Assembly: GCA_017646665.1 (NCBI GenBank)
Contig: JAGCMB010000024.1
Location: forward strand, 1 to 44,081
Length of the DNA: 44,081 bases
Origin: Bacteroidaceae bacterium
Lineage (GTDB): Bacteria > Bacteroidota > Bacteroidia > Bacteroidales > Bacteroidaceae
Direction: 5' to 3'
A model generated the notes under the pieces. The model was not told the origin of the DNA. It ran no database searches and saw only the letters and a list, made by a program, of their open reading frames with translations. The position numbers and the translations under genes are program-made. This document shows positions 28,473-43,893 of this stretch, in pieces. Each line of letters begins with the position of its first letter. Within the stretch, counting starts at the first letter, position 1.

Positions 28473-28547
28473 GGACGTTTAGCTCAGCTGGTTTAGAGCA
28501 TCTGCCTTACAAGCAGAGGGTCGGCGGTTCGAATCCGTCAACGTCCA
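28473..28547 (+). tRNA. tRNA-Val (anticodon UAC)
   Basis: Cloverleaf of 75 bases: acceptor GGACGTT / AACGTCC, D-arm 'AGCTCAGCTGGTTTAGAGC', anticodon loop CTTACAA (TAC), T-loop 'GGTTCGAATCC'. No CCA is encoded. Confidence 0.96.
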
Positions 28548-28560
28548 CAACTTATTTATC

Positions 28561-28635
28561 GGACGTTTAGCTCAGCTGGTTTAGAGCATCTGCCTTACAA
28601 GCAGAGGGTCGGCGGTTCGAATCCGTCAACGTCCA
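28561..28635 (+). tRNA. tRNA-Val (anticodon UAC), second identical copy
   Basis: Identical to the gene at 28473-28547, separated by 13 bases; a recent or conversion-maintained tandem duplication in one transcript. Confidence 0.96.
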
Positions 28636-28646
28636 CGACAACGAGG

Positions 28647-34721: not shown

Positions 34722-36320
34722 CTATAAATCCCCTTCGATATTATACTTTGCCCAGTAAGGGTGCTTCATGTAGTTTTCCAATGCTGTTAGCGGTACATGT
34801 ATCACTGCATTGCTGTTCTTCAGTATTGTGGTGATTGCAGGTGGGGTATGTGCGTGAAGATATATGTGCCTTAGGCTGTCGCAGTGGTAGAATGCATAGT
34901 CGCCAATCTCCTCTACCCTGGCAGGGATGGTAATCTCCTCCAGTCCCTTGCATTTCCAGAATACTCCGCGTTCAATCACCTTTAATGTTTGTGGCAGATA
35001 GACATTCTTCAGCCCATAGCATCGACCGAAAGCATCAAGTTCAATGCGCTCAACTCCCTCGGGGATATAAACCTCTTCAAGGGAGATGCAATCAACAAAT
35101 GCCGAGGCACTGATTGACTTTATATGTTGTGGGAACTTGATTGTCTTTAGTCTTCTCATTCCTCTGAAACCATTGTTGAAAACTGTTGTGCTGTTTGGTA
35201 ATGATATGGTTACAACGGAGTCGCAATCACGGAATGCGTAGTATCCAACCTTTTCAAGTCCTTCGGGCAGGTGAATCGACAGTATATTCCTGGCTGCAAA
35301 GGCAGAGTCTGCAATGCTCACAGTCTTGTACTCTATGTTGCCGAATTGAGCGATTGCCTGTATGTAGATGTTGTTTCCACGTCCATTGCCGCCAATGACC
35401 TCGCAGGTGCGCTCTTCGTGCGACAAAACGCGGTAAATAATCTCGTCCTGTGATTCTGTTATCTCAATCCTTTGCGGTTCATTGCTGCTACTCTGTTTCT
35501 TGCCATTCCACAGCAATGTGATGCAACCGGCTACTGCCAGCAATGAGATTATGCCAAGGAGAATGTTACGCTTCTTGTGGTGTGCGTTTATGGCACTGAT
35601 TACCTCGTCGGCTGTGGCAAAGCGTTCGCTTCTCTCCTTTTTGATGCAGCGTTTTATAATGTTTTCAAAATGGCGCGAATACTTTGCACCGCTCTTCCTT
35701 TTAATGTATCTCAACAGGCACCCAACGGCATATATGTCGCTGCGTTCATCGATGTTGCCGGTGCCACCCTCTAAAATCTCGGGTGCCGCAAACTCCTTTG
35801 TAACCCCGAATGTAGCGTGGCTGAACTTGTTGCTGAAGCAGAACCCCAGATCCACAATCTTCACATTGTCGCCCACCTGCGTGAGCATGATGTTGCCGGC
35901 GTTTATATCTACGTATGCAATGCCTTTTGAGTGCAGTGCCTTCAAACCGTCCAACAACTGCAGGGTAAAGCGGCGTATGTTGTGCTCCTTTTTAAAGAAT
36001 GCGGTGTCGTTTTTCAGTTTTTCTTCAACAGTTGAGCCTTGTACATACTCCATCAGAATGTACATCTCCTCTTCGCTCTCATAGATGGAGTCATATTTTA
36101 CCACATTGTTGTGCTCTATGCTCTTGCCAAGTGCGAACTCCTTTTGCAACAGCACTCTGTTACTGTGGTTGGGGAACAGTTCAGGGCGCAACTGCTTCAT
36201 GAAGTAGAGACGCCCGTCGTGGCACACCCTGTAGGACAACGATGTTGCACCATCGTCGCCAATAAGCACACTCTCCTCGAAAGTGTTTTCGTTACAGGTA
36301 AAGTTGGATGATGAAGCCAT
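34722..36320 (-). CDS. Transmembrane Ser/Thr protein kinase with extracytoplasmic BspA-type LRR_5 domain
   Basis: 532 residues. 12-245: Hanks-type kinase fold with K42 (beta-3 lysine), E61 (helix C), D138 and N143 of the catalytic loop ('YVDINAGNIML'), D157 of 'DLG', APE (179-181) and D195 ('SDIYAVG'). Unusual: the glycine loop is poor, the HRD histidine is Y136 and the usual lysine at D+2 is N140. 253-272: one membrane helix preceded by KKR, so the kinase is inside. 330-515: about seven LRR_5 repeats ('IPEGVERIELDAFGRC', 'LPQTLKVIERGVF') with a typical cap. It resembles a receptor kinase in layout. Co-transcribed with the gene upstream (12-bp gap), divergent from a large LRR_5 protein. Ligand and substrate unknown. 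Confidence 0.88.
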   Translation of the reverse strand: MASSSNFTCNENTFEESVLIGDDGATSLSYRVCHDGRLYFMKQLRPELFPNHSNRVLLQKEFALGKSIEHNNVVKYDSIYESEEEMYILMEYVQGSTVEEKLKNDTAFFKKEHNIRRFTLQLLDGLKALHSKGIAYVDINAGNIMLTQVGDNVKIVDLGFCFSNKFSHATFGVTKEFAAPEILEGGTGNIDERSDIYAVGCLLRYIKRKSGAKYSRHFENIIKRCIKKERSERFATADEVISAINAHHKKRNILLGIISLLAVAGCITLLWNGKKQSSSNEPQRIEITESQDEIIYRVLSHEERTCEVIGGNGRGNNIYIQAIAQFGNIEYKTVSIADSAFAARNILSIHLPEGLEKVGYYAFRDCDSVVTISLPNSTTVFNNGFRGMRRLKTIKFPQHIKSISASAFVDCISLEEVYIPEGVERIELDAFGRCYGLKNVYLPQTLKVIERGVFWKCKGLEEITIPARVEEIGDYAFYHCDSLRHIYLHAHTPPAITTILKNSNAVIHVPLTALENYMKHPYWAKYNIEGDL

Positions 36321-36332
36321 TGGTCTTTGTAA

Positions 36333-36905
36333 TTACTCCACTACACTATATTGAATGCCACCCTCCTTGCCGCATATATAGCCGGTAGGTGCACTGTTGT
36401 TATGTACAAGGCAACGCAAGTAGAGCGGTTGTTGTTGAATAAACTGGTAACACAGGAATGTGTCGCCTGTTGCGAGTTTGCTATTATGTGACTCAATGAC
36501 GCGGAACATGTCGTGCCCCTCATATCTTATTCTCACGCAGCGCCCGGGGTTCCAGCGGAGTTCAATAATTGCTCCCTTGTTAAGTGCAGCGGTCTGCAGG
36601 TTGGGATTGTGCAATATTTCGCTGCTTTGGCACGTGCTGTTGTCAATATTGTCTATGAACGCCTCAATGCTGGTGTGTCCTGCATATACAGCGAGTGTAT
36701 TCAGCGTGTTGCGGTATGGCTTTTTGCGATGTTCTTCTCCAAGATAACCCCAAAATCTCTTTAGTGTAATTGGCGAGATATATGTCTTTGTCTTGTCGAA
36801 AATACGTGCCGACAGGTAGTCGAAGTCGCGTGGCGTTATCATCTTGCGCCCCGCAGCTATTTCCACCTTCTCCTGCAATACCTTGTATATATTATCCGTC
36901 TCCAC
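36333..36905 (-). CDS. Unknown protein with possible DNA-binding N-terminus, upstream of the LRR kinase
   Basis: I do not recognise a named family. The N-terminal ~75 residues are helical and contain 'ITPRDFDYLSARI', 'ISPITLKRFWGYL' and a 'KKPYRNTLNTLAVYAGH' stretch, a pattern that resembles a helix-turn-helix fold seen in Bacteroidota unknown proteins. The C-terminal ~95 residues look like a small beta domain ('ELRWNPGRCVRIRYEGHDMFRVIE'). The frame is open to a TTG at 36965, but that stretch would be an odd hydrophobic N-terminus; a promoter-like TAAATTCG at 36936-36929 favours the GTG at 36905 (190 aa). Start uncertain. First gene of the kinase operon, so a regulator or kinase substrate is plausible (inference). 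Confidence 0.65.
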   Translation of the reverse strand: METDNIYKVLQEKVEIAAGRKMITPRDFDYLSARIFDKTKTYISPITLKRFWGYLGEEHRKKPYRNTLNTLAVYAGHTSIEAFIDNIDNSTCQSSEILHNPNLQTAALNKGAIIELRWNPGRCVRIRYEGHDMFRVIESHNSKLATGDTFLCYQFIQQQPLYLRCLVHNNSAPTGYICGKEGGIQYSVVE

Positions 36906-36928: not shown

Positions 36929-36936
36929 CGAATTTA
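36929..36936 (-). promoter_or_regulatory. Possible promoter -7 box for the kinase operon
   Basis: TAAATTCG on the minus strand, the TTCG variant also seen before lptB and the ferredoxin gene; no well-spaced -33 box. Confidence 0.3.
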
Positions 36937-36988: not shown

Positions 36989-37033
36989 GGGAGAAGAACC
37001 AAGATGAACCAAAGACTGGCGTGAAAAAGTCTG

Positions 37034-37041
37034 TAGTTTTG
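37034..37041 (+). promoter_or_regulatory. Promoter -7 box for the large LRR_5 protein
   Basis: Perfect TAGTTTTG; no good -33 box, which may mean activator dependence. Leader about 50 bases. Confidence 0.5.
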
Positions 37042-42274: not shown

Positions 42275-43084
42275 CTATTCAAAAAACAGGGATATTATGC
42301 CAAGATGGCGTCCGTTTTTTCCCATCTGTTGCATTATGACAAATTCTCCCTCGCAGTTCCTGTATGTCGCTGGTTGTTCGAAATAGTCGTGTGAATGTCC
42401 GCCGATGATTATGTCTATACCCGAAGTCTCTTCGGCCAATCGTTCATCGTTATATTCATTCTTTATCTTCCATCCCAAGTGTGAAAGGCATACAATAGCA
42501 TCGCATCCTTTAGCTTTTAGTTCTGCAACACACTTCTTTGCAGCCTCAATGGGTGAACTGAAAGATACTCCTTCGTAATTTTCCTGCGATACAAGTCCTT
42601 TGGGGTCGGGTGACAGGCCAAAAACACCTATTCTTTTTCCACCGCGTTCAATGATGGTGTATGGCTTTACCAACCCCTCGCACACAGTGCCCGTGAAGTC
42701 GTAGTTTGCGCAAAGGACTTCAAATTTTGCCATCTTGAACAGACGTGCCATATTCTCGAGCCCAAAGTCAAATTCGTGGTTGCCTATTGTGCAGGCGTCG
42801 TAGCCCATAGCGTTCATCAATTCTATCTCAGTAGCTCCCCTGAAGCAGTTGTAGTAAAGCGAACCTTGCGAAAAGTCGCCGCCGTCAAAGAGCAGTATAT
42901 TGTCTTTGCCAACCGAGTCGGCAATGCTTTCTATCAGCAAGGCACGGTTTAGTGCACCGGCGCCACCGTTCCTTTCGGGTTCAATGCAACTGTGTGTGTC
43001 GTTTGTGTGTAGTATTGTTATGCTGTTCTGTGCTGTTGCTCCATAACAGATAAACAGTGTCAGTAAAAGAAAAATCCTTTTCAT
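42275..43084 (-). CDS. 5'-nucleotidase/UshA-type metallophosphatase, N-terminal catalytic domain as separate protein
   Basis: Periplasmic hydrolase of nucleotides. Signal peptide 'FICYGATAQN'. Dimetal site residues: D29 and H31 ('LHTNDTH'), D70 ('DGGDF'), N102-H103 ('GNHEFDFG'), 'HLGW' near 203 and 'GGHSHDYF' near 237. 269 residues covers only the catalytic domain; the substrate-binding C-terminal domain is encoded by the gene just upstream, 4 bp apart, so the two act as a split enzyme. Confidence 0.92.
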   Translation of the reverse strand: MKRIFLLLTLFICYGATAQNSITILHTNDTHSCIEPERNGGAGALNRALLIESIADSVGKDNILLFDGGDFSQGSLYYNCFRGATEIELMNAMGYDACTIGNHEFDFGLENMARLFKMAKFEVLCANYDFTGTVCEGLVKPYTIIERGGKRIGVFGLSPDPKGLVSQENYEGVSFSSPIEAAKKCVAELKAKGCDAIVCLSHLGWKIKNEYNDERLAEETSGIDIIIGGHSHDYFEQPATYRNCEGEFVIMQQMGKNGRHLGIISLFFE

Positions 43085-43088
43085 TATC

Positions 43089-43841
43089 TTATTCTTTGAT
43101 TGTTATACGCCCATCGCAGGCCGCGCTTATTTTTTTGCCGTTTGCTGTCTGCTTCTTGATATATTCTACCATCAGGTCGCGCAAAAGATGGTTGGTTACC
43201 ACCAGGTCGCTTCCTTGTGCAAGCGTGGTGAGGTTATCGTTGCCTTGTGACAGATAGTCGAGCGTTGCAATGCGGTATTTGGCCTTGGGCTCTATGGCTT
43301 GTCCGCAAACTGTCGCGTCTATAAGTTCTCCCTTTTTTGTTATGACTAATCTGATGCCGCTTATCGCCTCTCCGCCAGCAGCTGCAATCTCCTTGCAAAG
43401 TTGCATCAATTGTTCGCCTTCCAGTGTCAGGAAAGCCAGTCTGTTCTCAAAAGTGAAAACATTGTATACATCGCCGAATGTGATTGCTCCGGCGGCTATG
43501 TTGCTCCTGAGTCCTCCCTTGTTTGTTATGGCAATGTCAACCTTCTGACAGCTGTGTGTCTGTGCCATTTCCATAAGAGCGTCGGCGGCAAAGTTCATCA
43601 ACGGACTTTCTGGAATGTATTTTTCAAGTGCAACGGCAGCTTCGCCAAGGACGGGGCTTTTGATGCTGTCAATATAGGCCTTGTTGCGCTCTAAGATTGC
43701 ACGTACTTCGTTTGCTCCCTCTTTCTTGCTGATGTTGGTAACCTTTATGTTGCCGGCCTGGATTTTCAGTGTCTGCTCCTTTGGGGTGCACGCCACCGCT
43801 ATTATTGCCAGCAATACAATTGCTCGATATGAGTGTTTCAT
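43089..43841 (-). CDS. 5'-nucleotidase C-terminal (substrate-binding) domain lipoprotein
   Basis: Matches the C-terminal domain of UshA-like nucleotidases: 'ITNKGGLRSNIAAGAITFGD' region, 'VYNVFTFENRLAFLTLEG' and 'YRIATLDYLSQGNDNL' carry the base-stacking and phosphate-near residues. Lipoprotein signal 'LLAIIAVAC' (C18-19), so membrane anchored. The frame is open to 43892, but a full promoter on the minus strand (43893-43862) starts RNA near 43857, which excludes that start; ATG 43841 (250 aa) remains. Operon order C-domain, then catalytic domain. Confidence 0.9.
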   Translation of the reverse strand: MKHSYRAIVLLAIIAVACTPKEQTLKIQAGNIKVTNISKKEGANEVRAILERNKAYIDSIKSPVLGEAAVALEKYIPESPLMNFAADALMEMAQTHSCQKVDIAITNKGGLRSNIAAGAITFGDVYNVFTFENRLAFLTLEGEQLMQLCKEIAAAGGEAISGIRLVITKKGELIDATVCGQAIEPKAKYRIATLDYLSQGNDNLTTLAQGSDLVVTNHLLRDLMVEYIKKQTANGKKISAACDGRITIKE

Positions 43842-43861
43842 AATTGTGATTTTTCTTCTTT

Positions 43862-43893
43862 CAAAGGTAACGTTTATGGCGCATAATAACAAA
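43862..43893 (-). promoter_or_regulatory. Promoter for the split 5'-nucleotidase operon
   Basis: Minus strand TTTG (43893-43890), 20 bases, TACCTTTG (43869-43862): full match at both boxes. It fixes the start at 43841. Confidence 0.7.

Follow-up and report, generated by a model that had tools for sequence, protein, structure and literature searches.

A receptor-type Hanks kinase with an LRR_5 ectodomain, a linked putative regulator, and a candidate private operator in Bacteroidales

The LRR_5 kinase locus

The window analyzed here is a 44,081-nucleotide stretch of DNA from a Bacteroidaceae bacterium of the gut (GenBank assembly GCA_017646665.1, contig JAGCMB010000024.1), the genome of which is represented by 2.13 Mb in 69 contigs and is 92% complete; Bacteroidaceae MAGs from the ruminant gut are its nearest named records. 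On its reverse strand lies an open reading frame (ORF) that joins a cytoplasmic Hanks-type Ser/Thr kinase, a single membrane helix, and BspA-type leucine-rich repeats (LRRs) of the LRR_5 family in one chain. Directly upstream of the kinase gene and in the same direction is a small partner gene encoding a putative DNA-binding protein, beyond which an apparently secreted LRR_5 surface protein is encoded divergently, and a short direct repeat, the candidate operator, separates the two (Table 1). An earlier, sequence-only reading had recognized the fused kinase, although it overlooked the partner gene and the divergent LRR_5 gene, the candidate operator between them, and the paralogues with other ectodomains.

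Table 1. Features of the LRR_5 kinase locus (window coordinates).
Feature	Position	Strand	Basis or remark
LRR_5 receptor-type Hanks kinase, 532 aa	34722..36320	-	ORF, domain matches; paralogues within the same genome
Kinase domain, residues 12-249	35574..36287	-	K42, E61, D138, N140 (replacing Lys), N143, D157
Membrane helix, residues 253-271	35508..35564	-	Prediction; structure model shows a helix at 237-271
BspA-type LRR_5 repeats, residues ~335-490, then a C-terminal cap	34851..35318	-	Profile match, model
Partner gene, 190 aa	36333..36905	-	GTG start picked by alignment with relatives; predicted helix-turn-helix and beta-barrel
Predicted recognition helix of partner, residues 44-52	36750..36776	-	SPITLKRFW, includes I46
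Partner Ser95 codon	36621..36623	-	Flexible linker; putative phosphoacceptor
Candidate -7 element of partner-kinase operon	36929..36936	-	TAAATTCG
Candidate operator, direct repeat with 10-bp period	36996..37010	-	GGTTC-ATCTT-GGTTC; between partner and divergent LRR_5 genes
Candidate -7 element of divergent LRR_5 gene	37034..37041	+	TAGTTTTG; 23 bp from the repeat
LRR_5 (BspA-like) protein, divergently encoded and apparently secreted, 1235 aa	37098..40805	+	

The kinase and its catalytic residues

Domain search, membrane prediction, and structure prediction all agree with the architecture first proposed, in the order kinase, membrane helix, LRR_5. The kinase domain scores 117.6 bits against the PF00069 profile (curated cut-off, 31.7) and the repeat domain 163.7 bits against PF13306, the BspA-type LRR_5 profile (curated cut-off, 27.7), while the top structural matches of the kinase domain, among those listed, are PknB chains. 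No PASTA repeats were found in a Pfam search of the window kinase at E 0.1, and its score against the NCBIfam PknB_PASTA model is 87.2 bits, below the cut-off of 450. The LRR domain had been described as external; it would lie beyond the inner membrane, but in a diderm member of the Bacteroidota it would probably face the periplasm, not the outside.

The VAIK lysine, alpha-C glutamate, catalytic aspartate, Mg-binding asparagine, and DFG aspartate are all present (K42, E61, D138, N143, and D157, respectively), and all 54 kinases with a complete partner keep the same five residues; this set excludes rows in which the kinase or the partner stretch was short. The window kinase lacks the canonical HRD motif with a lysine two positions after the aspartate (D+2), and its loop reads Y-V-D-I-N. 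Among the 54 kinases, D+2 is occupied by K in 33, S in nine, T in seven, and N in five, and the HRD histidine position by H in 32 and Y in 22. The loop had been called odd, with activity left in question; the substitutions are as reported, with K42, D138, N143, and D157 kept, but because these two positions vary among relatives while the other catalytic residues do not, the loop is a lineage feature and not a sign of decay. The invariance of the remaining catalytic residues in turn argues for kinase activity, which we consider likely. Comparison of the window's locus with its closest orthologue (L017) gives dN/dS values of 0.08 (kinase), 0.13 (ectodomain), and 0.12 (partner); in very close pairs the values are higher and noisy, reaching 0.5.

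Distribution and paralogues

The genome encodes two paralogues of the same fused type, one on contig C46, which is 51% identical along almost its full length, and one on contig C10, together with an LRR-less relative of the kinase, also on C46. As there are six Pkinase places in the whole genome, half of its Hanks kinases are of the LRR_5-fusion type. Across 44 genomes of the genus, 26 full-length matches were found in 19, and both domains occur in a single frame at 15 of 18 opened loci of the wider family; at two of the others (L101 and L110) the LRR-kinase relatives are interrupted by stops, and at a third (L111) the parts lie in different frames, although intact relatives exist. An order-level survey of 393 genomes, in which at most three candidates per genome were scored and the counts are hence lower bounds, found LRR_5 kinases in at least seven genomes of four other Bacteroidales families (L144-L150). 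After near-identical kinases were merged, the collection numbered 59 kinases, comprising 48 distinct LRR_5 kinases (the window's included) and 11 other ORFs. With 48 distinct examples, some of them from other families, the fusion is not the product of a frameshift joining two separate genes, a possibility that the sequence-only reading had raised.

The partner gene

Linkage between the kinase and the partner is close to strict. A scan of the genus yielded 38 family kinases (at least 135 bits, the next match scoring 88) and 41 partner matches; a partner lies within 3 kb of 36 of the 38 kinases (25 upstream in the same direction, nine divergent, and two convergent), and 36 of the 41 partner matches have a family kinase within the same distance, in comparison with one of 47 other kinase matches that have a partner within 3 kb. 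By genome, both genes occur in 22 of the 44 and neither in 21; the remaining one (G034) has a kinase without a partner, at the edge of a contig, and no genome has a partner alone. Among all loci collected, a partner accompanies 45 of the 48 LRR_5 kinases, lying upstream and codirectional at 42 loci and convergent at three; counted here as upstream are the overlapping partners of L017, L019, and L144, which stop-to-stop frames had labelled downstream. Two of the three kinases lacking one have only 69 and 923 upstream bases, and the third (L079) has 7.5 kb. The partner is also present at all 11 other ORFs, which are LRR-less or truncated, and LRR-less kinases from other families (L151, L152, and L157) carry dissimilar ectodomains. 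The conserved core is thus the kinase plus the partner, with LRR_5 as one ectodomain among several.

The structure model of the partner resembles a helix-turn-helix joined to a beta-barrel, although the fold evidence is weak, and 32 partners compared with Pfam at E 1 gave no match to a helix-turn-helix family, XRE or lambda-repressor-like types included. The model contains a block of low confidence at residues 91-100, and within this otherwise variable linker a serine occupies position 95 in 56 of 56 partners, making it a candidate phosphosite. The predicted recognition helix also has an invariant residue, T47.

Several related arrangements were seen in passing. At L009, an LRR-less membrane kinase (288-1529) is divergent from a partner gene (1575-2162) with a different repeat, TGACAAATAATGACAAAT, and divergent LRR-less kinase/partner pairs of the L028 type, with another repeat, occur in G021, G025, G026, G028, G031, G033, G037, and G038. 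The ectodomain of the partner-linked kinase at L157:1339-2823 looks by eye like a common Bacteroidetes surface domain; Pfam gave kinase families only. In other Bacteroidota classes (L163-L175), the N-terminal domain of the partner begins longer proteins, some of them with weak, sub-threshold NACHT/STAND matches.

The divergent surface protein

When the count is limited to LRR_5 kinase loci that extend 1.5 kb or more upstream of the partner, 15 of 22 have a divergent LRR_5 ORF, the one at L069 being a weak frame of 165 aa; a tally of 17 of 24 was discarded, since it admitted loci by the LRR gene seen. Only six non-kinase LRR_5 frames exist in the whole genome, and two are at such divergent loci. 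The surface protein of the window ends in YDLQGRKVENPSNGIYIVNGRKVYEK, as do the neighbours of other partner genes. The ectodomain of the C10 paralogue aligns with the window's surface protein (34% over 208 columns), including the non-repeat N-terminal cap, which suggests that the receptor ectodomain was derived from a complete surface protein.

A direct repeat that covaries with the partner

The two copies of the repeat change together from locus to locus, as GGTTC/GGTTC in the window and AGTCC/AGTCC at C10, with GGTCC, GGTAC, and CGTTTC elsewhere. In the 40-160 bases upstream of the partner, 22 of 30 loci show a match of at least 7/8 at a lag of 10; each of the other lags between 8 and 25 gave four such loci or fewer, and a Markov null had a mean of 1.8 and a maximum of 5 in 200 runs (L020 and L034 were omitted as near copies). 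Among 24 loci outside the discovery set, 11 reach 7/8 or better at lag 10 and nine at lag 9, against a lag-10 null with a mean of 1.6 and a maximum of 6 in 300 runs; some of these repeats are not of the GTNC form. The window's genome contains a single copy of the pattern GGTTCNTYTTGGTTC, located at the candidate operator, and the pattern has 11 matches in the 44 genomes, six of them beside a partner, whereas the reversed pattern has none in the same 44. Likewise, the only copy of AGTCCATTTTAGTCC in the genome is next to the C10 partner, and the genus has three copies, two of them beside a partner. Candidate -7 elements were sought with TAnnTTTG, which we take to be the consensus, and one belonging to the divergent gene is found 21-24 bp from the repeat at 10 of the 15 loci where such an LRR_5 gene is present, a raw count given without a chance expectation and from a survey in which the repeat was misplaced at a few loci (L070 and L030).

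The case for binding of this repeat by the partner rests most strongly on residue 46, which sits directly before the invariant threonine of the predicted recognition helix. Twenty-nine of 56 partners have a canonical repeat (a score of at least 7, the score being neutral on base 4), the other 27 being left out, and in these the residue follows base 4 of the half-site: isoleucine goes with T in nine of nine, threonine with C in 12 of 12, and serine with T in two of two, the rarer pairs being V-T (one), M-A (two), M-T (one), N-C (one), and N-T (one). Out of 166 columns, residue 46 ranks first, followed by 56 and 42, all in or beside the predicted helix-turn-helix. Fisher's test gives 3.4e-6 for I/T versus T/C, and 0.008 when partners at least 60% alike outside the helix are collapsed (five and five clusters). 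This covariation suggests, if indirectly, that the partner binds the repeat specifically.

A proposed signaling circuit and its rivals

We think it probable, with real room for doubt, that these genes form a one-to-one Ser/Thr-kinase module resembling a two-component system in its logic, built on a Hanks kinase that has a regulator and an operator of its own. Lying outside the inner membrane, the LRR_5 domain would sense a ligand, which may be an LRR_5 protein of the cell surface or some component of the envelope, and thereby alter the activity of the cytoplasmic kinase. The kinase could then phosphorylate the partner encoded just upstream, possibly at Ser95, and the partner, binding the direct repeat between the divergent promoters as either an activator or a repressor, would control both its own operon and the gene for the LRR_5 surface protein. 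Every paralogous module in a genome would have its own repeat sequence. Since the recognition code predicts the operator of each partner, the model lends itself to simple binding and reporter assays.

Some chance, though a small one, attaches to the view that the kinase acts on other proteins, such as those of the cell envelope or division, in the manner of PASTA kinases, and that the partner merely regulates expression of the genes; the PknB-like fold, the position of the repeat at the partner's own promoter, and the many targets of PASTA kinases noted in the available text of a 2018 review (PMC6213207) are in keeping with it, but a pleiotropic kinase has no need of the strict one-to-one linkage seen here even for LRR-less kinases. 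The lost catalytic-loop lysine (now asparagine) and HRD histidine (now tyrosine), together with N, S, or T at D+2 in 21 of the 54 kinases, would suit a pseudokinase that binds ATP or nothing and serves as an allosteric scaffold, retaining the partner for as long as the LRR domain is not engaged. We regard this as unlikely, given the invariance of the other catalytic residues, the lysine kept at D+2 in most of the family, and purifying selection on the kinase part. Bud32- and RIO-type kinases, moreover, are active without the D+2 lysine.

It is rather improbable that the partner is an adaptor and that something else binds the repeat. The weak fold evidence and the related N-terminal domains in ORFs with sub-threshold NACHT/STAND matches would fit an adaptor, but the covariation of residue 46 with the repeat, and the location of the best columns in or beside the predicted helix-turn-helix, point to DNA binding. 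Membership in an anti-phage defence system would fit the matches of the kinase domain to PADLOC models of kinase-based systems, the best at 6.4e-34. These matches span the generic kinase domain only, and the neighbours seen are a surface protein and housekeeping genes, leaving a role in defence very improbable indeed.

Beyond the single locus, a broader reading, on which we are evenly divided, is that a Bacteroidales family of such systems exists, with an exchangeable ectodomain (LRR_5 being the commonest form here), a dedicated small helix-turn-helix regulator, a private 10-bp direct-repeat operator for each module, and a residue-46 recognition code that keeps paralogous modules apart; its LRR_5 form would couple LRR_5 sensing to expression of LRR_5 surface proteins. 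If true, the circuit would provide a concrete, testable function for the BspA-type LRR receptors of gut Bacteroidales.

Other features of the window

Elsewhere in the window are two tandem tRNA-Val (tac) genes (28473-28636) and, at 42275-43892 on the reverse strand, two adjacent ORFs that by eye resemble the halves of a 5'-nucleotidase (a metallophosphatase and a C-terminal domain).

Comparison with known systems

The window kinase resembles the PASTA receptor kinases (PknB, PrkC, and Stk1) in its N-terminal cytoplasmic Hanks kinase, one helix, and C-terminal extracytoplasmic repeats, but it has LRR_5 in place of PASTA and is linked to a putative DNA-binding partner, whereas PASTA kinases are often phosphatase-linked, according to the available text of the same review. 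With BspA-like LRR_5 surface proteins it shares the repeat family, which in this protein is joined by a membrane helix to a kinase. The sequence-only reading knew of no characterized LRR_5 receptor kinase, and we likewise found none described in the open-access literature, the scope of our search (subscription papers and preprints lay outside it); the terms "leucine-rich" and "LRR" are absent from the available text of the 2018 review (PMC6213207).

The likeness to eukaryotic LRR receptor kinases drawn by that reading holds for the parts, since an LRR sensor, a single membrane helix, and a Ser/Thr-type kinase share one chain, but not for their order: plant receptor-like kinases run LRR, membrane helix, kinase, and the bacterial protein, with its BspA-type LRR_5 repeats, is their mirror image. 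The resemblance is one of parts only, with no shared fusion shown, and the module, if it works as proposed, would be an independent bacterial counterpart. In mycobacterial PknH-EmbR and other kinase-regulator pairs, a membrane Hanks kinase acts on a DNA-binding regulator; EmbR carries an FHA domain, whereas the putative regulator here is small and belongs to no Pfam family.

The logic of the module, namely a sensor kinase, an adjoining dedicated DNA-binding regulator, and a private operator, is that of a two-component system, but its kinase has the Hanks fold and not that of a histidine kinase, and neither histidine kinase nor receiver domains are among the Pfam matches of the kinase and partner. 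Judged by its domain content, the module belongs neither to the two-component systems nor to the PASTA receptor kinases. Were the circuit borne out, bacteria would be seen to pair a Ser/Thr receptor kinase with a single regulator and operator, a logic associated with histidine-kinase systems.
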